From Salipiger thiooxidans (lineage in GTDB: Bacteria > Pseudomonadota > Alphaproteobacteria > Rhodobacterales > Rhodobacteraceae): DNA of 64,000 nt. The stretch covers positions 248,001 through 312,000 of the forward strand of contig NZ_FNAV01000004.1 of NCBI RefSeq assembly GCF_900102075.1, in the 5' to 3' direction. How positions within the stretch are numbered: the first letter of the stretch is position 1; each line of letters begins with the position of its first letter. Of this stretch, positions 37,312 through 47,862 are shown in pieces. The position numbers and the translations under genes were made by a program. The notes under the pieces were generated by a model. The model was not told the DNA's origin, made no database searches, and was given only the letters and a program-made list of their open reading frames with translations.

Positions 37312-37773
37312 TCACATCGGGATCGGACGCTGTTCCTCGATCGCCTCCATGGCGAAATACGAGGTCACGGTCTCGAGCTCGATCTCCTCGATCAGGCGCT
37401 TGTAGACCTCGTCATAGCTGTTCATGTCGCGGGTGATGATCTTCAGCAGGTAGTCGTATTCGCCGCCGATCCGGAAGAAGTCGATGACATCCGGGATCGC
37501 CGAGACATGGGTGCGGAAGCGCTTCAGCCAGGCGGCGGAGTGGTGCCGCGTCTTGATCATCACGAAGACCACCAGCCCTGCGCCCAGCTGGTTGCGGTCC
37601 AGCACCACCGTGTGGTTGCGGATGACGCCGGCGGCGTCCAGCGCCTTGAGCCTCCGCCAGCAGGCGTTCTGCGACAGGCCGACACGCTCGCTCAGTGCGC
37701 GCTGCGAGAGCGAGGCGTCGCGTTGCAGTTCGGCGAGGATGCGGTGGTCAATGTGATCGAGTTTTAGAGACAT
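37312..37773 (-). CDS. Lrp/AsnC family transcriptional regulator
   Basis: A 153-residue protein. The N-terminal winged helix-turn-helix is clear ('LDHIDHRILAELQRDASLSQRALSERVGLSQNACWRRLKALDAAGVIRNH', residues 4-52) and the C-terminal RAM/effector domain contains 'FFRIGGEYDYLLKIITRDMNSYDEVYKRL'. The start at 37773 gives the usual N-terminus. It is divergent from the class V PLP enzyme, so it most likely controls that gene in response to an amino acid. Confidence 0.92.
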   Translation of the reverse strand: MSLKLDHIDHRILAELQRDASLSQRALSERVGLSQNACWRRLKALDAAGVIRNHTVVLDRNQLGAGLVVFVMIKTRHHSAAWLKRFRTHVSAIPDVIDFFRIGGEYDYLLKIITRDMNSYDEVYKRLIEEIELETVTSYFAMEAIEEQRPIPM

Positions 37774-37883
37774 TATTGGATCATATGATAGAAAATTGTG
37801 GCTTGGAAGGTGAAAATATGTGAAGTCTTCTCGATTTCGCGGTGACATATTGGTTGCCAGACCTTCCCCGAAACGAGATGCTA
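37774..37883. promoter_or_regulatory. divergent regulatory region between the lrp-like and class V PLP genes
   Basis: A 110-base AT-rich gap. It contains a perfect 10-bp palindrome ATCATATGAT (37780-37789) close to the regulator start, a plausible Lrp-type autoregulatory site, and a single ATGTGAA half-site (37818-37824) identical to the arm of the inverted repeats before the DUF2852 gene. Confidence 0.4.
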
Positions 37884-39344
37884 ATGGCCCCCCTCGACGA
37901 CTTCGCCCTTTCGCTCAAGCGCCCGGATCTGCCGCAGTGGTTGCGCGCCGGGCTGATCGGGGAGAACGCGACCATCGACGGGCCATTCGGGCCGAAGCCG
38001 CTGGTCTACGCCGATTACGTGGCCTCGGGGCGGGCGCTGGCCCAGGTCGAGGATTTCGTGCGCGACCGGGTGCTGCCCTATTACGCCAACAGCCACACGC
38101 AGGCGTCGTTCTGCGGCGCCTATGCCACCCGCCTGCGCGAGGCGGCGCGGGCCGAGATCGCGCGCATGACCGGTGCGGGCGAGGGCATGAGCGTGGTCTT
38201 CACCGGCTCCGGCAGCACCGCGGGCATCAACCGCATCGTCGGCCTGCTCGACATTCCCGCGACGCTCGCGGCGGGTGGCCGGGTCGTGGTGCTGGTCGGG
38301 CCCTATGAGCACCATTCCAACCTGCTGCCGTGGCGCGAGACCGGCGCCGAGGTCGTGGAGATTCCCGAGGCGGGCGAGGGCGGTCCGGACATGGCGGCGC
38401 TCGAGCGTGCGCTCGTGGCTGCGCAGGGCGCGGCCCTGGTGGTGGGCAGCTTCTCGGCCGCCTCCAACGTCACCGGCATCGTCACCGACACCGACGCGGT
38501 GACGCGGCTGCTGAAGCGGCACGGCGCGCTCGCGGTCTGGGATTTCGCCGGCGGCGCGCCCTACGTGCGGATGCGCATGGAGCAGAGCACCGATGCCGAG
38601 AAGGACGCCATCGTCTTCTCGCCGCACAAGTTTCCCGGCGGCCCCGCCGCGTCGGGCGTCATGGTGCTGCGCGACGCCATCGCCCGCCGCCGCACGCCGA
38701 CCCTGCCGGGCGGCGGCACCGTGAGTTTCGTCTCGCCGTGGGGGCATCGCTATTCGGAGAGCCTCTCCCATCGCGAGGAGGGCGGCACGCCCAACGTCAT
38801 CGGCGATATTCGCGTGGCGCTGGTCATGCTTGTGAAGGAAGCGCTGGGGCAGGACTGGCTCGACGCCCGGCAGACGGCGCTCCGGGCCCGGGCCGAGGCG
38901 GTCTGGCGCCACAATCCGCGGATCGAGATGCTGGGGCTGCAGCGCCCCGATGCGCTGCCGATCTTCTCGTTCCGGGTGCGCGACGGTGAGGGCGGGCTGG
39001 TGCACCACCAGTTCTTCACCCGGCTGCTGTCGGACCTGCACGGCATTCAGGCCCGCGGCGGCTGCGCCTGCGCGGGTTCCTACGCGCACCGGTTGCTGGG
39101 GCTCGACGAGGCGGCCTCGGACGCGATGTTCGCCGCGCTCGAGCGGGGCGAGGAAATGTCCAAGCCCGGCTGGGTACGGCTCAATCTTTCGGCCCTGATG
39201 ACCGACGAAAAGGCCGATATGATCATCCGGGCGGTGGACAATCTGGCCCGCGAGGCCCCAGACTACCGGTCACGTTACGAGTGTGACCCGTCAACCGCCC
39301 GTTTTGCGCCTGCCCCGACCGAAGCCGCGAGCCTGGTCTCCTGA
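37884..39344 (+). CDS. class V aminotransferase-fold PLP enzyme, cysteine desulfurase-like
   Basis: A 486-residue PLP enzyme related to SufS/CsdA cysteine desulfurases. It shows 'YADYVASGRALAQVEDF', 'SHTQASFCG', 'VGPYEHHSNLLPWRE', 'WDFAGGAPY' (PLP aspartate at 220) and 'FSPHKFPGG' (Schiff-base lysine at 249). Late in the chain 'ARGGCACAGSYAHRLLG' places cysteines where desulfurases have the persulfide residue. No SufE/SufU partner or suf genes are nearby; with the divergent Lrp regulator, an amino-acid lyase role is as likely as Fe-S assembly. ATG 37884 is chosen; GTG 37842 and ATG 37878 are alternatives. Confidence 0.82.
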   Translation: MAPLDDFALSLKRPDLPQWLRAGLIGENATIDGPFGPKPLVYADYVASGRALAQVEDFVRDRVLPYYANSHTQASFCGAYATRLREAARAEIARMTGAGEGMSVVFTGSGSTAGINRIVGLLDIPATLAAGGRVVVLVGPYEHHSNLLPWRETGAEVVEIPEAGEGGPDMAALERALVAAQGAALVVGSFSAASNVTGIVTDTDAVTRLLKRHGALAVWDFAGGAPYVRMRMEQSTDAEKDAIVFSPHKFPGGPAASGVMVLRDAIARRRTPTLPGGGTVSFVSPWGHRYSESLSHREEGGTPNVIGDIRVALVMLVKEALGQDWLDARQTALRARAEAVWRHNPRIEMLGLQRPDALPIFSFRVRDGEGGLVHHQFFTRLLSDLHGIQARGGCACAGSYAHRLLGLDEAASDAMFAALERGEEMSKPGWVRLNLSALMTDEKADMIIRAVDNLAREAPDYRSRYECDPSTARFAPAPTEAASLVS

Positions 39345-39570
39345 TGCGGGCCAGCCGTGACTGCCGCCTGTGCCGTGCGCGGGCGACGCAGCGCAAATCG
39401 CGGGCGGTGCCGGGATGCCCCGGGGCGGACGCCGGGGGCGGGGTGGCGCGGGCATCGACATGCCGGCGCCCATCCCCTAGACCTTGCGCATCGGTTTCCG
39501 GGCGGAACACCCAGCTTGATGCTGAAACGAAACATGATTTTCTCGTAGGATGTCTCTGAGGATGATTCGT

Positions 39571-41049
39571 ATGCAAACGAACGACGCATCAACGTACGGC
39601 GCATCGCCGATCGACGGTCAGGGCCTGGACGTGCTCGAAGCGCGGCTGCGCGAGGACCTCGAGTTCCTGTGCTACCCCGGCAAGGACTGGGTGCCCGCGC
39701 GCGAGGGTGTGACGGACGTGGTGATCATCGGCGGCGGCATGTGCGGCATGGTGGCGTGGATGGGCCTGACCTCCGGCGGCGTCCGCAACATCCGCGTGCT
39801 CGACCGCAGCCCCGAGGGCTTCGAGGGGCCGTGGCTGAATTACGCCCGCATGGAGACGCTGCGCTCGCCCAAGGTGCTGACCGGCCCGGCCTTCGGCCAC
39901 GGCGCGCTGACCTTCCAGGCGTGGTTCCGGGCGCAGTTCGGCACCGAAGCGTGGGAGACGCTCGACAAGATCCCGCGGCCGCAATGGATGGAGTACCTGC
40001 GCTGGTACCGCAAGGCGGCCGGCGTGCCGGTCGAGAACGGCGTCTCGGTCGACAAGGTCGAGCCCGAGGGCGACCTGCTCCGGCTCACCGTCTCCGGCGC
40101 CGAGGAGGGCACGATCCTCTGCCGCAAGCTGGTCTTCGCCACCGGCCGCGACGGCACCGGCGGGCCCAACATCCCGGGTTTCGTGCAGGGGCTGGACCGG
40201 CGGTTCTGGGCGCACAGCGCCGATGACATCGATTTCGACACGCTGCGCGGCAAGCGCGTGGCGGTGATCGGGGTGGGGGCTTCGGCCGTGGACAACGCCG
40301 CCGAGGCGCTCGAGCATGGCGCCGCCGAGGTCCGCCACCTGATCCGCCGCAAGGAGATGCCGACCGTCAACAAGATGATGGGCATCGGCTCCTATGGGTT
40401 CACCGCCGGGTTCGCGGGGCTGCCCGACGAATGGCGCTGGCGCTTCATGCAGTACAGTTTCTCCACGCAGACGCCGTCGCCGCATGGCTCGACCCTGCGG
40501 GTCAGCCGCCATCCCAACGCCTATTTCCACTTCGGCAAGGCCACGAAGACCATCGAGCAGCACGGCGACGAGATCGAGATCCGCTTCGCCGACGGCACCA
40601 GCCACCGCTGCGATTTCGTCATCCTCGGCACCGGTTTCATCATCGACCCGATGGCGCGCACCGAATTCGGAGAGGTTGCAGGCCGCATCCAGCTCTGGCA
40701 GGACGTCTACACCCCGCCCGAGGGTGAGGAGCAGGCCGATCTTGGCCGCTTCCCCTATCTCAACGAGGATTTCACCTTCCGCGAGAAAGTCGCGGGCGAG
40801 GTGCCATGGCTGAAGAACGTCTATTGCTTCAACTACGGCGCATCGGCGAGCCTCGGGAAGGTCTCGGGTGACATCCCGGGTGTCTCGGAAGGCGCAGCGT
40901 GGCTCGCCAGGGCGATGGCGGCGACGCTCTACGCCGAGGATCTGGAAACACACTGGCAGGCAATGCTGGATTACGACACGCCGGAGCTCGACGGGACGGA
41001 ATGGACCGAGACCGAGCTGGCTTCGGCCAAAGAAGGGCAGGTTGCATGA
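39571..41049 (+). CDS. FAD/NAD(P)-dependent oxidoreductase, flavin monooxygenase-like
   Basis: A 492-residue flavoprotein. It has an FAD-binding 'VVIIGGGMCGMVAW' near residue 49 and an NAD(P)H-binding 'VAVIGVGASAVDNAAEAL' near residue 230, the two-nucleotide layout of class B flavin monooxygenases; the fingerprint between them is not exact. 'FVILGTGFIIDP' is the second conserved FAD segment. First gene of the cluster running to 47335. ATG 39571 is preferred because GAGG is 9 bases upstream; ATG 39550 and 39562 are also in frame. The next gene overlaps its stop (ATGA). Likely substrate: an amine or ketone imported by the adjoining transporter. Confidence 0.78.
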   Translation: MQTNDASTYGASPIDGQGLDVLEARLREDLEFLCYPGKDWVPAREGVTDVVIIGGGMCGMVAWMGLTSGGVRNIRVLDRSPEGFEGPWLNYARMETLRSPKVLTGPAFGHGALTFQAWFRAQFGTEAWETLDKIPRPQWMEYLRWYRKAAGVPVENGVSVDKVEPEGDLLRLTVSGAEEGTILCRKLVFATGRDGTGGPNIPGFVQGLDRRFWAHSADDIDFDTLRGKRVAVIGVGASAVDNAAEALEHGAAEVRHLIRRKEMPTVNKMMGIGSYGFTAGFAGLPDEWRWRFMQYSFSTQTPSPHGSTLRVSRHPNAYFHFGKATKTIEQHGDEIEIRFADGTSHRCDFVILGTGFIIDPMARTEFGEVAGRIQLWQDVYTPPEGEEQADLGRFPYLNEDFTFREKVAGEVPWLKNVYCFNYGASASLGKVSGDIPGVSEGAAWLARAMAATLYAEDLETHWQAMLDYDTPELDGTEWTETELASAKEGQVA

Positions 41050-41528
41050 GCATCTTCGACACCACCACTCTGAGCGCAGCGGGCGTCACCCCGGGCAGCG
41101 CCACGGCCGCCGCCACCGAGACCCGCGCCAACATCATTGAGGCCACGCAGGCCGCCGAGGACGCGGTGCTGACCCCCAAGGACCCCGGCGCCTTCCCGCA
41201 CCCGCTGCGTGCGGCGCTGGCCGCCCGCGTCGCCGCGCTTGGCGGTGAACCGGCGCTGGCTGAGCGCTACGCCGCCCGCGCGGGCGGCAGCGCCGCTCTC
41301 GCCGATCCGGCGCAGGACGGCACCGACCAGGGGCTGTCTCACCTGATGGCCTTCGTCGACAAGGTCGCCAACGACACCCGCAACATCGACGCTCAGGACA
41401 TCGCCGGGCTGCAGACCGCGGGCGTGTCGGACGCCGACATCGTGCGCCTCTGCGAGCTCGTCGCCTTCCTTGCCTACCAACTGCGCGTGGTCGCCGGACT
41501 GCGTCTGATGACCGGAGCCGCCGCATGA
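41046..41528 (+). CDS. CMD domain protein, Avi_7170-like
   Basis: A 160-residue mostly helical protein. The CMD-like core 'HPLRAALAARVAALGG...LAERY' and 'ICELVAFLAYQLRVVAGLRLM'-type ending (here LCELVAFLAYQ) fit the TIGRFAM group described as 'CMD domain protein, Avi_7170 family', recalled from memory. It lacks a CxxC pair. It overlaps both neighbours by ATGA. This family is typically encoded next to the Avi_7169-type protein, as here. Confidence 0.75.
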   Translation: MSIFDTTTLSAAGVTPGSATAAATETRANIIEATQAAEDAVLTPKDPGAFPHPLRAALAARVAALGGEPALAERYAARAGGSAALADPAQDGTDQGLSHLMAFVDKVANDTRNIDAQDIAGLQTAGVSDADIVRLCELVAFLAYQLRVVAGLRLMTGAAA

Positions 41529-42112
41529 GCCGCATCGTCCACAAGTTCACACGCACCGTCCCGCAATGGCAGCCGCGCGTCACGCCGGTGAAGCTCGACG
41601 AGGCCACGCCCGAACAGCTCGACGCGCTGAGCGTGACGCCCTCGAACACCAAGGTCTCGGCCTACGTTCTGACGCTGGCGCATGACGTCGAGAGCCTCAA
41701 GGTGCGCTCGCCGCTGTTCAACGCCATCATGTACGACGCCGGCGGCATGTCCCGCGCCGAGCGCGAGGTGGGGGCGCTGGCGGCCTCGATGGTCAACCGC
41801 TGCATCTACTGCGCGGCGGTCCACGCCGACCGCCACGCCAAGCTCGAGAAGGACACCAGCGTCACCGACGAGCTCTTCGCCAAGGGCGAGAACGCCGACC
41901 TGAGCCCGCGCAACCGGGTGATCTTCGACTTTGCCCGCAAGCTTTCGGAAGCGCCGGTAGGCGCCACGGCCGAGGACATGGCGGCGCTGCGCGAGGCGGG
42001 GCTCTCCGAGGAAGAGATCCTCGATCTCATCCTGTCGTCGTCGCTCTTCGGCTGGGCCAACCGGCTGATGCACGTGCTGGGCGATCCCGTGCGCGAGGAG
42101 GTCTCTGCATGA
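41525..42112 (+). CDS. alkylhydroperoxidase domain protein, Avi_7169-like
   Basis: A 195-residue AhpD-fold protein that keeps the redox motif 'NRCIYCAAVHADRH' (CxxC plus histidine, about residues 97-107), so thiol-dependent peroxidase or disulfide chemistry is possible. 'LSPRNRVIFDFARKLSEAP' and 'ILDLILSSSLFGWANRLMHVLG' match the Avi_7169-type family as I recall it. Overlaps by ATGA on both sides suggest fixed stoichiometry with its neighbours. It may remove peroxide formed by the flavoprotein upstream; that is inference. Confidence 0.78.
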   Translation: MSRIVHKFTRTVPQWQPRVTPVKLDEATPEQLDALSVTPSNTKVSAYVLTLAHDVESLKVRSPLFNAIMYDAGGMSRAEREVGALAASMVNRCIYCAAVHADRHAKLEKDTSVTDELFAKGENADLSPRNRVIFDFARKLSEAPVGATAEDMAALREAGLSEEEILDLILSSSLFGWANRLMHVLGDPVREEVSA

Positions 42113-43227
42113 CCGAGGCGCAGGGCAGCCCCTGCCGGATCGGTATCGCAGGCGCCGGCTCCATCGCCTTCGGTTCGGCGGCGCTTCTGCACGTAAACGG
42201 TCACCACCCGATGCTGTGGTCGCCCTCGGGGGCGTCCACCGCGGCGCTGGCCGGGGCCCCGCTGACCGCCACCGGCAGCGTCGAGACCTCTTTCATCCCG
42301 CGGGTGGCAGGCTCGGCCGAGCAGCTCGTGGCCGAGAACGACGCGATCCTGATCGCGCTGCCGGGCTACGGTCACAAGCCGGTCTTCGACGCGCTGGCAC
42401 CGCATCTGCGCGACGGCCAGCACGTCATCATCAGCTCGCACGCCTCGTTCGGGGCGGTCTACCTGATGCAGCTCTGCGCCGCGCGCGGCGTGACGCCGAC
42501 GATCACCGCATGGGGCACCACCGCGGTCACCGGCCGCCGGGGCGAGGGCGCCTCGGTCAAGGTCAACACGGTGCGCAAGAAGGTCGATCTCTGCACCGTG
42601 CCCGAGACCCGCAGCGACTGCGCCCGCGCGGTCTGCACCCGGCTCTTCGGCGATGTCTTCGTGCCGCGCGACGGGCTGCTGGCGATCACGCTCTCGAACC
42701 TCAACCCGCAGAACCACCTCGGCATCGCGCTTGGCAACATCACCCGGATGGAGCGCGGCGAGACCTGGTCGCAGGGCCAGAACGTCACCCCCAAGGTGGG
42801 GTCGCTGCTCGAGGCGCTCGACGCCGAGCGCCTGGCCATCGTGGCGGCGCTGGGGCTGAAGACCAAGACCATCTTCGAACACTTCTCGCAGAGCTTCCAC
42901 GTTCCCGAGGCCAGCGTCTCGGAGATGAACCAGCAGATGCACGCGCAGGGCAACGGCGGCACCGGACCCGCGACCGCGGACAGCCGCTACGTGACCGAGG
43001 ACGTGCCCTACGGCCTGCAGCCCACTGCGGTTCTGGGCCGGCTCGCCGGCGCCCCGGCCGAGCTGCACGAGGCGGGGATCAGGATCTTCTCGGCGATGTA
43101 TGGCCGCGATTTCACCGCTGAGAATGATATACTGAATGCGCTGGAGCTCGACCGCTTCAGCCTGGACGATCTGCGCGAGGCCGCCCGTACCGGTCTTCTG
43201 CAGAAGGCGCCCGCTGCGGCGACCTGA
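42109..43227 (+). CDS. opine (octopine/nopaline) dehydrogenase family protein
   Basis: A 372-residue NAD(P)-dependent enzyme. The Rossmann loop is 'IGIAGAGSIAFGSAALL' (residues 11-27) and the helical C-terminal domain holds 'LNPQNHLGIALGN', with H203 at the position of the catalytic histidine of octopine dehydrogenase. The family reductively joins, or oxidatively splits, an amino acid and a 2-oxoacid. Next to an importer, the splitting direction is more likely. The substrate is unknown. ATGA overlap with the previous gene; the binding-protein gene follows after 45 bases. Confidence 0.82.
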   Translation: MTEAQGSPCRIGIAGAGSIAFGSAALLHVNGHHPMLWSPSGASTAALAGAPLTATGSVETSFIPRVAGSAEQLVAENDAILIALPGYGHKPVFDALAPHLRDGQHVIISSHASFGAVYLMQLCAARGVTPTITAWGTTAVTGRRGEGASVKVNTVRKKVDLCTVPETRSDCARAVCTRLFGDVFVPRDGLLAITLSNLNPQNHLGIALGNITRMERGETWSQGQNVTPKVGSLLEALDAERLAIVAALGLKTKTIFEHFSQSFHVPEASVSEMNQQMHAQGNGGTGPATADSRYVTEDVPYGLQPTAVLGRLAGAPAELHEAGIRIFSAMYGRDFTAENDILNALELDRFSLDDLREAARTGLLQKAPAAAT

Positions 43228-43272
43228 ACAAAAAACGATACGGATACCCAACCCACAGGGAGACGCGAACAC

Positions 43273-44379
43273 ATGACCAAGCTCATCCTCAACCGACGCA
43301 AGTTCCTGAACACCGCAGCCGCCTCCGGCGCGGTGCTTGCGAGCCCCGCCTACCTGCGCCGCGCCTACGCCCAGGGCGGCGAGGTCAACATCTGGACCTA
43401 CAACGACTTCGTGCCCGAGGCCTTCAAGGAGCAGTTCGAGTCCGAGACCGGCATCAAGGTCAACGTCCGCCTCGTCGACGACCAGGGCAAGCAGTTCAAC
43501 CTGCTGGCAGCCGAGCAGCCGAACCCGACGGTCGACATCATGACCGTCGCCGGCCACCGCTTCCTGCAGTTCATCGACAGCGACCTGCTGGCGCCGCTCG
43601 ACACCGACCGGCTGAGCAACTGGGGCAAGATCAACCCGACCTTCTCGGAATCCGACTGGGCCACGATCAACGGCGAGAAGTGGGGCGCGCCGATCCTGTC
43701 GGGCATGGAGGTGCTGGCCTACAACTCCGAGATCGTCTCGCCCGAGGAAGCCCAGACCTGGGACACGCTGTTCAGCGAAACCTACAAGGGCCAGACCGCC
43801 TACGTGATTCAGGACATGATGTCGATCGTCATGCTGATGATGGGTTACGACGGCAACATGGTCGCCTATCTCGACGACCCCGCCAAGGCCGCGGAGATTG
43901 TCGAGGAGGCCAAGGCCTTCCTCATCGAGAAGAAGCCGCTGGTGCGCAAGTACTACGACGGCGGCGCCGAGGTGCAGCAGATGTTCGTCAACCAGGACAT
44001 CGTGCTCGGCCACTCGTGGAACGGCCCGGCGGCGGCGCTGATCAACGACGGCTTCCCGCTCGGCATGGCGATCCCGAAAGAGGGCTCCTACGGCTTCGTC
44101 TACACCTACAACATCGCCAAGAACTGCCCGAATCCGGACAACGCCTACACCTTCCTCGACGCCATCCTCTCGAGCCCCGAGATCGGTGCGGCGATGACCA
44201 AGGCCTCGGGATTCATTTCGACGTACAAAGATGCGTCGAACCACCTTTCCGACCTCGAAAAGAAATCTACGTCCTTCCCGGACGAGGAGCTGGCGAACCT
44301 TCAGTTCTTCCGCGCCGAGGCGAACGAGATGAAATACGGTCTCGTCGATCCCGCCGTGGAAGCGATCAAGGCCGCGTAA
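43273..44379 (+). CDS. polyamine-type ABC transporter substrate-binding protein, Tat-exported
   Basis: A 368-residue periplasmic binding protein related to PotD/PotF. The N-terminus 'LNRRKFLNTAAASGAVL' is a twin-arginine signal ending at AYA near residue 32. The mature protein starts 'GGEVNIWTYNDFVPEAFKEQFESETGIKVN', the usual spermidine/putrescine-binding family opening. Polyamine binders use aromatic and acidic residues; I could not confirm the full set, so the ligand may be another cationic or amine compound. Highest-expressed gene of the transporter judging by the hairpin after it. Confidence 0.85.
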   Translation: MTKLILNRRKFLNTAAASGAVLASPAYLRRAYAQGGEVNIWTYNDFVPEAFKEQFESETGIKVNVRLVDDQGKQFNLLAAEQPNPTVDIMTVAGHRFLQFIDSDLLAPLDTDRLSNWGKINPTFSESDWATINGEKWGAPILSGMEVLAYNSEIVSPEEAQTWDTLFSETYKGQTAYVIQDMMSIVMLMMGYDGNMVAYLDDPAKAAEIVEEAKAFLIEKKPLVRKYYDGGAEVQQMFVNQDIVLGHSWNGPAAALINDGFPLGMAIPKEGSYGFVYTYNIAKNCPNPDNAYTFLDAILSSPEIGAAMTKASGFISTYKDASNHLSDLEKKSTSFPDEELANLQFFRAEANEMKYGLVDPAVEAIKAA

Positions 44380-44404
44380 ACACACTCACGGAGCCTTTCG
44401 CCCG

Positions 44405-44434
44405 CCGCCCGCCGGATATCGATCCGGCGGGCGG
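44405..44434 (+). other. 13-bp hairpin after the binding-protein gene
   Basis: A perfect 13-bp stem (44405-44417 with 44422-44434) closed by the 4-base loop ATCG, between the binding-protein stop and the first permease. No T-run follows. Hairpins here commonly protect the upstream mRNA from 3' decay, giving more binding protein than permease. Confidence 0.75.
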
Positions 44435-44480
44435 TAGACCCCACAGATCCGTCGTCATTCCTGTCGAAAAGGAAGACCCC

Positions 44481-45467
44481 ATGTCCTATGACGCATCCGC
44501 GCGGCAGGAACGCGGGACCGTCGCTGCGCATGCCTCCGACCGCACCTTCTGGGGTCGGCTGGCAAGCTGGGCGCCATACCGGGCGCTCGTGCAGGTGGCC
44601 ACCGCCTCGCCGCGCCGCCAGTTCGTCATCCTCGCCGTCTTCCCGATCCTCTGGGTGCTGACCCAGCACCTCGGGCCGATGCTGCAGATGCTGCGCGTCT
44701 CGCTGACCGATGCCTACCCGGTCGCCGCCAACGTCGAGCAGCATTTCACCTTCGACAACTACGTCCGCTTCTTCGGCGACAGCATCTTCTGGATGCCGTT
44801 CTTCCGGACCCTGATCTTCGCGGCGGCCTTCACCTTCTGCACGCTGGTCCTGACCTACCCGGTGGCCTATTTTCTCGCCCGTCACGTCAGCCCCAAGAAC
44901 CGGATGCTGCTGCTTCTGCTGCTGCTGATCCCGTTCTGGGTGGGCGAGATCGTGCGGACCTACGCCATCATGATCCTGCTCGGCAACACCGGGGCGGTGA
45001 ACATGGTGCTGCGCTGGTTCGGGCTCATCGACCGGCCGATCCCCTTCATGTACACGAGCTTTTCCATGGGCGTGGGCATCGTCTACCTGACCGCGCTCTA
45101 CATGCTGCTGCCGCTCTACTCGGCGCTCGAGAAGCTGCCGAAATCGCTGAACGAGGCCGCGGCCGACCTCGGCGCGGGGGCCTGGACGCGGTTCCGCAGG
45201 GTGACGCTGCCGCTGACGCTCGAGGGCATTTCCTCGGGCTGCACGCTGGTGTTCCTGATCTCGACCGGCTTCTACGCCACGCCGGTCCTGCTGGGCGGGC
45301 CCTCGACCACGGTCTTCGCCGAGACCATCGCCGGCTTCTTCCACGTGGCGGGCGACGAGTGGCCCACGGGCGCGGCCTTTGCTGTGATCATGTTCCTCGC
45401 GGCGCTGGCGATCACTGCCGGGTTCCAGCGGCTGATGAGCGCGCTGCGGAAGGGAGACACGAAATGA
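44481..45467 (+). CDS. ABC transporter permease, PotB type
   Basis: A 328-residue inner-membrane protein with six or seven helices. The coupling loop 'EKLPKSLNEAAADLGAGAWTRFRRVTLPLTLEG' is the EAA motif that contacts the ATPase. The N-terminal 45 residues are an extra cytoplasmic segment before the first helix. AAGGA sits before ATG 44481. It overlaps the second permease by ATGA. Confidence 0.9.
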   Translation: MSYDASARQERGTVAAHASDRTFWGRLASWAPYRALVQVATASPRRQFVILAVFPILWVLTQHLGPMLQMLRVSLTDAYPVAANVEQHFTFDNYVRFFGDSIFWMPFFRTLIFAAAFTFCTLVLTYPVAYFLARHVSPKNRMLLLLLLLIPFWVGEIVRTYAIMILLGNTGAVNMVLRWFGLIDRPIPFMYTSFSMGVGIVYLTALYMLLPLYSALEKLPKSLNEAAADLGAGAWTRFRRVTLPLTLEGISSGCTLVFLISTGFYATPVLLGGPSTTVFAETIAGFFHVAGDEWPTGAAFAVIMFLAALAITAGFQRLMSALRKGDTK

Positions 45468-46249
45468 CCCGTCACAACCGCATCCTGCTGTCCTGCTTCT
45501 ACTGGGGCTTCGTCGCCTATGTCTTCGTGCCGCTGATCCTCATGGTCACCATGGGTTTCAAGGACAGCAAGTTCATCGGCTTTCCGATCAAGTCCTGGAC
45601 GCTGGACTGGTACGCGAGCGTCTTCGCGGACTCCGAGACCATATCGGCCTTCGGCTACTCGGTCGCCATCGCGGTGCTCTCGACCCTGATCTCAGTCGTG
45701 GTCGGCACCTGGATCGCGGTGCTGCTCGAGGGCCGCAAGTTCTGGGGCAGGGCGGCGATCTTCGGGATGACCGTGCTGCCGGCGCTGATCCCCGGCATCA
45801 TCTCGGCCATCGCCTTCCGCATCTACGCCCGCTACCTCGGCATCGAGCCGGGCATGGGCGCCATCGTCTGGAGCCACGCGGTGCACAACGTCCCCTTCGT
45901 GGTGCTGGTGGTCATGGCGCGGCTCTCGACCCTGCCTAAAAGCCAGATCGAGGCGGCGCGCGACCTTGGCGCCGACCCGCTGATCGCCTTCCTGCGCATC
46001 ACCTTCCCCTATCTCGTGCCCGCGATCATGGGGGCGAGCATCTTCTGCCTTCTCCTCAGCTTCGACGACTTCGTGCGCTCGTTCTTCCTGGGCGGCTACG
46101 AGCCGACCCTGCCGGTGCTGATCTTCGCCAAGCTGAAATCGGGCATGTCGCCCGAGATCAACGCCATCGCGACCGTGGCGCTCATCCTCACCGCCGTGAT
46201 CGGCGTCTGGGCCGAGCGTTTCACCCGCCGCATGAACAAGGATAGCTGA
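45464..46249 (+). CDS. ABC transporter permease, PotC type
   Basis: A 261-residue permease with six helices and the EAA loop 'LPKSQIEAARDLGADPLIAFLRITFPYLVPA'. It pairs with the PotB-type protein encoded just before. 'LLLSFDDFVRSFF' before the fifth helix is usual in PotC/PotI. The ATPase gene starts 3 bases after its stop. Confidence 0.9.
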   Translation: MTRHNRILLSCFYWGFVAYVFVPLILMVTMGFKDSKFIGFPIKSWTLDWYASVFADSETISAFGYSVAIAVLSTLISVVVGTWIAVLLEGRKFWGRAAIFGMTVLPALIPGIISAIAFRIYARYLGIEPGMGAIVWSHAVHNVPFVVLVVMARLSTLPKSQIEAARDLGADPLIAFLRITFPYLVPAIMGASIFCLLLSFDDFVRSFFLGGYEPTLPVLIFAKLKSGMSPEINAIATVALILTAVIGVWAERFTRRMNKDS

Positions 46250-46252
46250 GCC

Positions 46253-47335
46253 ATGGCCAATGATCCTCTCGTCCGCCTCGAAGGCGTGACCAAGCGCTTC
46301 GGCGAAACCACCGCGCTCGACAACCTGACGCTCGACATCGCGCAGGGCGAGTTCGTGACCTTCCTCGGGCCGTCGGGCTGCGGCAAGTCCACGACGCTGC
46401 GCATCCTCGGCGGCTTCGAGCAGCCGACCGCGGGCCGGGTGCTGCTGCGCGGCGAGGACGTCACCAGGCGTCCGCCGGAGAAGCGCAACGTCAACATGGT
46501 GTTCCAGGACTACGCGCTGTTCCCGCATATGACGGTGAAGCAGAACATCGCCTTCGGGCTCGAGCTCAAGGGCATGGGCAAGGCCGAGATCGCGCGGCGG
46601 CAGGACGAGATCATGTCCTTCCTCGAGCTCACCGCCTATGGCGACCGCTACCCGGCGCAGCTCTCGGGCGGGCAGCGGCAACGGGTGGCGCTGGCGCGCG
46701 CGCTGGCACCCGATCCGGCGCTCTTGCTGCTCGACGAGCCGCTGGGCGCGCTCGACGCCAAGCTGCGCGGGCAGGTGCAGCAGGAGCTGAAGTCGATCCA
46801 GCGCCGCACCAACAAGACCTTCTTCTTCGTGACCCACGACCAGGAAGAGGCGCTCACGATGTCCGACCGCATCGTGGTGATGAACAAGGGCCGGGTCGAG
46901 CAGGACGGCACGCCGGAAGAGCTCTATTTCCACCCGGCCTCGCGTTTCGTGGCCGAGTTCATCGGCGAGACCAACCTGCTGACCGGCGAACTGCGCGGCA
47001 CCGAGGGCGACGCGGTGGTGATGGACTGGTTCGGCACGACGCTGCGCGGCCACGCGCCGGGCGGGGTACCGCGCGCCGGTGCGCCGATCACCGCCTCGGT
47101 GCGGCTCGAGCGGCTGGGCTTCCACGCCGAGCGCCCGGCCACCGCCAACGCGGTGCAGGGCAGGGTGACCGGCAAGACCTTCCTCGGCTCGCGCATGGCG
47201 CTCGATCTGACGGTCGAGGAGGCGCAGGGCGCCAGGCTGCGCGCCTACGTGGACGCAGACACCGGCCAGTCGGTCGGCGACGCGCCGGTGTGGATCGGCT
47301 GGGACCAGAGCAGCATGGCGGTGTTGCGGGACTGA
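46253..47335 (+). CDS. ABC transporter ATP-binding protein, PotA type
   Basis: A 360-residue ATPase: Walker A 'GPSGCGKST' (about residues 38-46), signature 'LSGGQRQRVALARAL', Walker B 'LLLLDEPLGALD', switch histidine in 'FVTHDQEEAL', and a C-terminal TOBE regulatory domain (about 285-355). It completes a four-part importer. A strong hairpin with T-rich tail follows 50 bases after its stop. Confidence 0.93.
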   Translation: MANDPLVRLEGVTKRFGETTALDNLTLDIAQGEFVTFLGPSGCGKSTTLRILGGFEQPTAGRVLLRGEDVTRRPPEKRNVNMVFQDYALFPHMTVKQNIAFGLELKGMGKAEIARRQDEIMSFLELTAYGDRYPAQLSGGQRQRVALARALAPDPALLLLDEPLGALDAKLRGQVQQELKSIQRRTNKTFFFVTHDQEEALTMSDRIVVMNKGRVEQDGTPEELYFHPASRFVAEFIGETNLLTGELRGTEGDAVVMDWFGTTLRGHAPGGVPRAGAPITASVRLERLGFHAERPATANAVQGRVTGKTFLGSRMALDLTVEEAQGARLRAYVDADTGQSVGDAPVWIGWDQSSMAVLRD

Positions 47336-47413: not shown

Positions 47414-47862
47414 TGCTTTTGCAGGCTACCCTTGCGGAGAGATCCGTGCTTCGGGAGCGCTCTACGCTCTACGCTCTACGCTCTACGCTCTACGCTCTAC
47501 GCTCTGAGCGTATGGAAATGCGCTCTCCGTGGGCCAAGCCAGTGCGGTTGTCGGATCTATGTGCAGTTGGAGAGCAGGTCACCACCACAATGCAGTCTGC
47601 CCAAGGCCGCTGCGCTTTGGTGGCGGAGAAGTTCGTCTCTCCTTGCTCCGGGCTCAGTGTCTATGGGGAAAAACTGGGCGTGTTGGGCACAGCCCGGGCA
47701 GCGGTATCTGGGATCGGCGCTGGCGACGGATACGGTCGCGGGTCCCGACGCTGGTTTGGAGGTGGTTCCGGGGTCGGCGCCTGAATTCCTCATGCGCCGG
47801 CCCTGGGGCCAATTCCTTGAAGAGCCGTTACAGAAAAACGGCCCTTTCGTGGCAGGCTTTCG
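47414..47862. other. gene-poor region between the transporter operon and the helicase
   Basis: About 450 bases (527 from stop to stop) without a convincing gene. Open frames exist, but their translations are low-complexity or unlike proteins and none has a good ribosome site. It holds the heptamer repeat (47459-47505) and a GCCGTT/AACGGC dyad (47824-47829/47837-47842) shortly after the helicase stop on the minus strand. Confidence 0.6.
47459..47505. repeat. 7-bp tandem repeat GCTCTAC, 6.7 copies
   Basis: Six exact head-to-tail copies of GCTCTAC (47459-47500) and a partial seventh (GCTCT). The unit is not a multiple of three, so a copy change would shift any frame read through it. It lies 45 bases beyond the transporter terminator, outside recognised genes. 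Such tracts vary by slipped-strand replication. Confidence 0.95.

Follow-up and report, generated by a model that had tools for sequence, protein, structure and literature searches.

A cluster of eight genes in Salipiger thiooxidans most plausibly serves, although we propose this tentatively, the import and oxygen-dependent catabolism of a zwitterionic, probably N-substituted amino compound of the opine type, as a unit that is apparently passed between bacteria. The cluster (positions 39571-47335) lies on the plus strand of a 64,000-nt stretch of contig NZ_FNAV01000004.1 (248,001 to 312,000), which we call the window and to whose positions all unprefixed coordinates refer. In this scheme a Pot-type ABC system would import the compound, and an FAD/NAD(P)H monooxygenase of N-hydroxylase fold would oxygenate it at or beside the nitrogen. 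The reactive oxygenated product, or peroxide, would be handled by a pair of proteins, a carboxymuconolactone decarboxylase (CMD) protein and an AhpD-like protein, of which only AhpD has a redox CxxC. An NAD(P) opine dehydrogenase would split either substrate or product at its N-carboxyalkyl bond, yielding an amino acid and a 2-oxo acid for nitrogen and carbon. The analysis shows the linkage of the genes, their families, their conserved catalytic residues and the fold; we infer the class of substrate, the order of the steps, the parts played by the CMD protein and AhpD, and the catabolic direction. The cluster probably lets many marine and soil bacteria use an amino-acid-like nitrogen compound.

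The preliminary description of this DNA had proposed eight same-strand genes, four of which are linked by consecutive ATGA overlaps, and both open reading frames (ORFs) and sequence confirm this arrangement. The genes code, in order, for the flavoprotein, the CMD protein, the AhpD-like protein, an opine-dehydrogenase-like protein (ODH), a substrate-binding protein (SBP), two permeases and an ATPase, with overlaps at 41046-41049, 41525-41528, 42109-42112 and 45464-45467. Families were assigned by Pfam and NCBIfam profile searches of ten window proteins. Co-occurrence outside this genome had been set beforehand as a test by which the proposal could fail, and it was found. Genomes were scanned with six peptides taken from the window ODH; this confirmed 81 stretches, of which the best 80 were kept. 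They gave 79 loci, 72 of which carry all eight genes together; these loci are ODH-selected close relatives that include near-copies, so that the counts do not represent independent events. By gene, the flavoprotein is present in 74 loci, the SBP in 77, and the CMD protein, AhpD, each permease and the ATPase in 76. Four of the seven incomplete loci (L066, L077, L079 and L107) sit at contig ends. Gene calls in the fetched loci are mechanical ORFs, and several neighbour names given below (in G015, G358/G231/G178, L146-L150, L215/L219, and the contexts of flavoprotein homologues and of Sinorhizobium meliloti) were read from the first residues unless Pfam is stated.

The 79 loci belong mostly to Rhodobacterales, with others in Rhizobiales, Geminicoccaceae and Granulosicoccaceae, and gene order varies by group. 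In 41 loci it runs lrp, pyridoxal phosphate (PLP) enzyme, MFS, flavoprotein, CMD, AhpD, ODH, SBP, ATPase; in nine it is reversed and split with a MATE gene, and several Rhizobiales have the SBP first. In genome G015 the flavoprotein/CMD/AhpD and ODH/Pot/MFS sets lie on separate contigs, both being present. Across the 385 genomes of the class the ODH reaches at least 300 bits in five, and among these only G000 and G015 also have a flavoprotein of at least 600 bits and an AhpD in the 148-155-bit band. The cluster is a real, recurrent metabolic unit. It also seems to move between lineages: in the flavoprotein tree Oceaniovalibus (L092), of the Roseobacteraceae, is placed together with Shinella (L089; support 100/99), which suggests transfer. 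One locus (L082) comes from a record titled Enemella evansiae, an actinobacterial name. Its genes are arranged as is usual in Rhodobacterales, and its ODH is 76% identical to that of the window; the record is possibly mislabelled or contaminated.

The connection with opines comes from the ODH (42109..43227, plus strand). It matches the octopine/nopaline dehydrogenase family PF02317 at 122.5 bits (cut-off 30), and its His203, already singled out as the catalytic histidine in the preliminary description, aligns together with Asp298 with the His and Asp of a pair in CENDH (1BG6, E 2.4e-29) that we take to be catalytic. The ODH tree separates the cluster proteins, together with two ODHs of Ti plasmids, from 13 distant homologues of the class with 100/100 support, long branches being flagged among the distant rows. 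One of the Ti-plasmid genes (L227:11938-13020) lies between those for arginase and ornithine cyclodeaminase, near nocT/Q/M and genes for FAD and 2Fe-2S proteins; the other is found beside an ABC system and FAD/2Fe-2S proteins. Because the window ODH shares its branch with an ODH placed among the nopaline-catabolism genes of a Ti plasmid, an opine-type link is supported. A plasmid search returned 228 records with an ODH match at 1e-60, mainly from Agrobacterium (117) and Sinorhizobium (66).

The last four genes had been described as a Pot-type importer of an opine-like or N-substituted amine. The components are indeed present, namely the SBP (43273..44379), permeases of the PotB/PotH type (44481..45467, searched in Pfam and NCBIfam from 44610) and the PotC/PotI type (45464..46249, searched from 45443) and an ATPase of the PotA/PhnT type (46253..47335), all on the plus strand, but none reaches a Pot equivalog cut-off (PotA 364.6 against 482, PotB 187.9 against 348, PotC 163.2 against 326 and PotD 65.9 against 582), and the potA subfamily score is 351.7 for a cut-off of 355.6. 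The SBP, a periplasmic protein, has Pfam support for its family, and its model (pLDDT 86.8) has PotD as best Foldseek match; also listed is MotA, an opine-binding protein listed with mannopine and related opines. The closest solved SBPs with known ligands are PotD and PotF. We aligned the SBP to both proteins from E. coli, with the rows of its relatives filtered at 45% identity. Glu171 of PotD corresponds to Asp181, Asp257 to Tyr277, Asp168 to a gap and Tyr85 to His95, which is followed by Arg96. All 79 aligned rows have these four window residues (Asp181, Tyr277, His95 and Arg96). We take Asp168, Glu171 and Asp257 to be the acidic amine-binding residues of PotD, and a single one of these three positions is acidic in the SBP (Asp181), which is not the pattern of a polyamine importer. 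One ammonium site together with a new positive site suggests a zwitterion, and the sequence suggests that this is a likelier ligand than a polyamine. Of the proposed import of an opine-like or N-substituted amine, the opine side is supported by the branch of the ODH, and a ligand other than an ordinary polyamine by the comparison of SBP residues.

The flavoprotein (39571..41049, plus strand) had been credited with two nucleotide loops, and both are there as Rossmann loops (GGGMCG and GVGASA). It matches Pfam Lys_Orn_oxgnase above the cut-off, plus Pyr_redox_3, and its AlphaFold model (29 sequences, pLDDT 81.5, pTM 0.80) finds putrescine and ornithine N-hydroxylases as top Foldseek matches, so that the fold and the FAD and NADPH loops of N-hydroxylating monooxygenases are all found. 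The wider family occurs in 28 of the 385 genomes (E 1e-40). Four homologues with 41-42% identity lie in urate/purine gene sets. At L184 (by Pfam) and L188 (by sequence likeness) the neighbouring genes code for OHCU decarboxylase, HIUase and a PuuE-like deacetylase, and those at L185 (Pfam) and L189 (likeness) for AMP nucleosidase and adenine deaminase. These four are probable HpyO-type urate hydroxylases, as judged from their gene sets; HpyO has been described as a urate oxidase that is a flavoprotein and belongs to a separate family of hydroxylases (PMC4562309). In the flavoprotein tree 19 cluster rows are split from the four urate-linked rows by a 100/100 branch, and of the 16 rows in neither group that of G015 falls on the cluster side. 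Neither an HIUase nor an OHCU gene was found among the ten window proteins. The window protein is best called a monooxygenase, and from sequence and model both N- and C-hydroxylation are possible; the amine oxidase initially envisaged is not what it resembles.

The CMD protein (41046..41528) and the AhpD-like protein (41525..42112), both on the plus strand, had been matched to the Avi_7170 and Avi_7169 families. They are of related types, but both cut-offs are missed: the CMD protein, which has no Pfam match, scores 80.4 bits against TIGR04029 (CMD_Avi_7170, cut-off 100.75), and AhpD 149.4 bits against TIGR04030 (perox_Avi_7169, cut-off 233.15). For comparison, TIGR04029 gives 101.9 bits for the relative L230, 103.6 for the relative L226 and 81.4 for L151. 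AhpD is above the cut-off of TIGR01926, peroxidase-related enzyme (197.8 bits against 81.8). The best class-wide matches to TIGR04030 fall in bands of 277-309 bits (five genomes) and 148-155 bits (four genomes), followed by values of 79 or less, and true TIGR04030 genes occur in 5 of the 385 genomes (L146-L150), each with a CMD partner that lacks CxxC. A search for the same flavoprotein and ODH beside Avi_7169/Avi_7170 homologues had been suggested. In all five true loci the gene that adjoins the CMD partner is homologous to the one in L149 for a luciferase-type monooxygenase (Pfam Bac_luciferase), with ABC genes nearby. The window-type pair is carried by G195 and G080; luciferase-family genes near the pair in L151 and L152 are unrelated or only weakly related to the L149 enzyme, and none was found in L153. 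From these contexts CMD/AhpD pairs would appear to serve two unrelated types of flavin monooxygenase. All 77 aligned AhpD rows have CxxCxxxH (CIYCAAVH in the window, which agrees with the CIYC and His noted before), and 1 of 77 CMD rows has CxxC, the window protein being without it. Because the CMD protein lacks this motif, only AhpD could do thiol or peroxide chemistry, a step that had been suggested for AhpD. Nothing on Avi_7170, Avi_7169 or the CMD domain protein was found in the open full-text literature.

A counterpart was found on pSymB of S. meliloti 1021 (L229), where the genes for AhpD, CMD, flavoprotein, ATPase, permeases, SBP and a LysR regulator stand in a row and that of the ODH is divergent. 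By gene order and type, the record being unannotated, we matched this locus to SMb20278-SMb20285, eight genes reported to be adjacent and co-regulated in mutants of glnD and of glnB/glnK. The published description assigns to them a regulator of the LysR type, an ABC system of polyamine-like kind, a pyridine nucleotide-disulphide oxidoreductase, a carboxymuconolactone decarboxylase and one hypothetical protein, and they form a co-regulated nitrogen-stress group under GlnD/PII signalling (PMC3596328). Unlinked expression, together with binding of ordinary polyamines alone, had been named in advance as a finding that would count against the pathway; here the importer, flavoprotein, CMD and AhpD genes are co-regulated. 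The published group does not include the ODH (PMC3596328). In the open full-text literature, expression data were all that was found in print for SMb20276-SMb20286. At the AhpD end of the locus (L229:2480-5656) there are BKACE-family and class-III aminotransferase genes (Pfam) and an RpiR-like regulator (sequence), which could belong to the pathway.

Directly upstream of the window cluster lie a divergent gene for an Lrp/AsnC-family regulator (37312..37773, minus strand) and a gene for a class-V PLP enzyme resembling cysteine desulfurases (37884..39344, plus strand). The regulator matches Pfam AsnC_trans_reg and an HTH domain from ORF residue 29; the listed ORF begins at 37848, and 37773 was chosen as the start just ahead of the matched domain. 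The start of the PLP gene (Pfam Aminotran_5) was set at Met15 of a 500-aa ORF, a position with Met in 45 of 49 aligned rows. Aligned with cysteine desulfurase chains, its product keeps Lys263, Cys410 and His157 (numbering of the 500-aa ORF) and misses the corresponding cut-offs (SufS, 115 against 475.1 bits; CsdA, 82.7 against 607). The PLP gene is present in 48 of the 79 loci, always with the Lrp gene, and is missing near the cluster in the other 31. Homologues occur in genomes without a close ODH or flavoprotein (G331, G022 and G057), and in two contexts without the cluster (L215 and L219) an Lrp homologue adjoins the PLP gene. Because the two co-occur elsewhere without ODH or flavoprotein, they were rejected as core parts and are treated as a separate neighbour.

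Typically between the PLP and flavoprotein genes, 51 of the 79 loci carry an MFS gene (Pfam MFS_1, product of ca. 445 aa), 44 of them among the 48 with the PLP gene and seven among those without it. The window has no MFS gene, and its 226-bp gap at this place (39345..39570) holds no convincing relic; four further PLP-carrying loci also lack the gene. Elsewhere in the S. thiooxidans genome there are one MFS homologue at 46% and one weak one. A MATE gene is found in 12 loci, and neither MFS nor MATE in 17, some of which are cut by contig ends. The MFS family has a His-rich C-terminal tail (e.g., L037:6092-7423), with 8-12 His in the last 60 residues of 49 of the 51 proteins, 19 in one and 2 in another, which suggests metal binding or regulation. 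The spacer between the SBP and permease genes contains a strong, G+C-rich hairpin with a 14-bp stem (44404..44435, plus strand). The minimum free energy of the 101-nt spacer is -45.6 (z -4.99), a stability equalled in 0 of 200 shuffles, and one might expect such a hairpin if the SBP is more highly expressed. A perfect 7-bp tandem repeat (CGCTCTA, 6.9 copies, 47458-47505) follows the last gene at a distance of about 120 bp. In A. fabrum a DsbA-fold protein annotated as 2-hydroxychromene-2-carboxylate isomerase (L230:4222-4812) is encoded between the CMD and flavoprotein genes, and a similar one (L182:8527-9135) adjoins a flavoprotein homologue. An att-region setting for the A. fabrum copy was considered, and no confirmation appeared.

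Several observations weigh against import and catabolism of an opine-type compound. The suggested ligand of the SBP comes from an alignment at ca. 20% identity. Two loci (L094 and L095) have the ODH and importer without the flavoprotein/CMD/AhpD trio, L112 has the ODH alone, and no linked trio was seen in three of the five genomes with a close ODH (G358, G231 and G178), in which the ODH is found in other contexts and is therefore not exclusive to this pathway. In these contexts the ODH has as neighbours a DAO-family flavoenzyme (L155, Pfam), an M81/MlrC protein (L157, Pfam) or an apparent peptide transporter (L156). The MFS or MATE exporter of 62 of the 79 loci would fit export or detoxification no less than catabolism, and the published S. 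meliloti set leaves the ODH unnamed. Known opine catabolism, moreover, uses the flavin dehydrogenases Oox/Nox, NAD(P)-type enzymes being mostly described as synthases (PMC4575208), and a DAO or Fer2 match in Pfam, as for NoxAB/OoxAB, was obtained for 0 of the 10 window proteins.

Catabolism of a heterocycle is in our view unlikely; here the flavoprotein would C-hydroxylate a ring like that of urate or hydantoin, and the remaining enzymes would open and clear the product. The homologues in urate/purine gene sets speak for it, as do an amidohydrolase, an Asp/Glu/hydantoin racemase and a CN-hydrolase in L194 and an Asp/Glu racemase-family gene in the Rhizobium-type L100 and its close relatives; however, the urate-linked flavoproteins form that separate, fully supported branch, the ODH would have no obvious role, and a ring-opening hydrolase is absent from the ten window proteins searched, the relatives not having been searched systematically. 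Bacterial opine dehydrogenases make opine metallophores, and the N-hydroxylase fold of the flavoprotein, the frequency of the exporters and the His-rich tails of the MFS proteins would suit a pathway that makes an N-hydroxylated or opine-type, metallophore-like metabolite, exports it by MFS or MATE and re-imports it by the ABC system. We regard such biosynthesis as distinctly unlikely: in the contexts, in which no search was aimed at such genes, we noticed none for a TonB receptor, a synthetase or a protein resembling nicotianamine synthase; the window and the 17 loci mentioned lack the exporter; and the ODH branch includes those of Ti catabolic regions, metallophore ODHs being outside the comparison. 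Ordinary polyamine catabolism with a PotABCD-type importer appears very unlikely, in spite of PotD and PotF being the closest solved SBPs and of the description of the S. meliloti genes as putative polyamine uptake (PMC3596328). Two acidic ligands of PotD are lost and one is kept, an invariant His-Arg is present, the Pot equivalog cut-offs are all missed and the ODH requires either an amino acid or a 2-oxo acid as its partner. Least probable of these is a sulfur-compound pathway, with the upstream PLP enzyme as part of the unit and releasing sulfur after S-oxygenation by the flavoprotein. The catalytic Lys and Cys of that enzyme and the PLP and Lrp genes ahead of the cluster in 48 loci would agree with it, but the PLP gene exists in genomes with no close ODH or flavoprotein, stands beside an Lrp homologue in contexts without the cluster and is not found next to the cluster in 31 loci.

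If oxygen-dependent catabolism of an opine-type compound is correct, its substrate would be a nitrogen source for many marine Rhodobacterales and rhizobia. Four proteins without an assigned role, two of them related to the NCBI "hypothetical equivalog" families Avi_7169/7170, would be joined in one testable pathway, and this is present in the genetically tractable S. meliloti 1021, where the genes passed as polyamine uptake. The more specific claim of a second, oxygen-dependent route for opines (N-carboxyalkyl amino acids) we hold as doubtful. It would combine a class-B N-hydroxylating monooxygenase, a CMD/AhpD hetero-complex, a catabolic NAD ODH and a zwitterion-adapted Pot-type importer, spread by transfer among marine and plant-associated Pseudomonadota, and would point to an opine-like nutrient that is natural and widespread outside crown galls. 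Judged by titles and opening lines of abstracts, no paper listed in the open literature on opine and octopine dehydrogenases in connection with transporters, flavin, strombine or Rhodobacteraceae dealt with such a cluster.

Among known systems, the N-hydroxylating monooxygenases SidA, PvdA and putrescine N-hydroxylase are like the window flavoprotein in fold, in the two nucleotide loops and in Lys_Orn_oxgnase, but it is only 13-18% identical to them in the listed fold alignments, and siderophore genes are absent from the ten window proteins searched. HpyO probably belongs to the same wider family, judged from the urate-gene neighbours of the 41-42% homologues; compared through these homologues and not through the HpyO sequence itself, the window flavoprotein is on a separate branch, and its cluster has no urate genes. 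With the Avi_7170/Avi_7169 pair the window shares a CMD protein without CxxC beside a CIYC AhpD, an adjoining flavin monooxygenase and ABC genes nearby, the monooxygenase being luciferase-type there and N-hydroxylase-type here. The S. meliloti group has seven of the eight gene types of the window (AhpD, CMD, flavoprotein and the four ABC genes) plus LysR, with the ODH adjoining divergently; it differs in having LysR instead of the upstream Lrp/PLP pair and in its gene order, and the proteins are 37-60% identical. In the Ti-plasmid noc/occ regions an ODH of the same branch lies among opine genes, and both systems follow the logic of importer, flavoenzyme and ODH. Where noc/occ have NoxAB/OoxAB and a noc-type transporter, as well as an arginase and ornithine cyclodeaminase that are not among the ten window proteins searched, the cluster of S. 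thiooxidans has a monooxygenase, a CMD/AhpD pair and a Pot-type importer.

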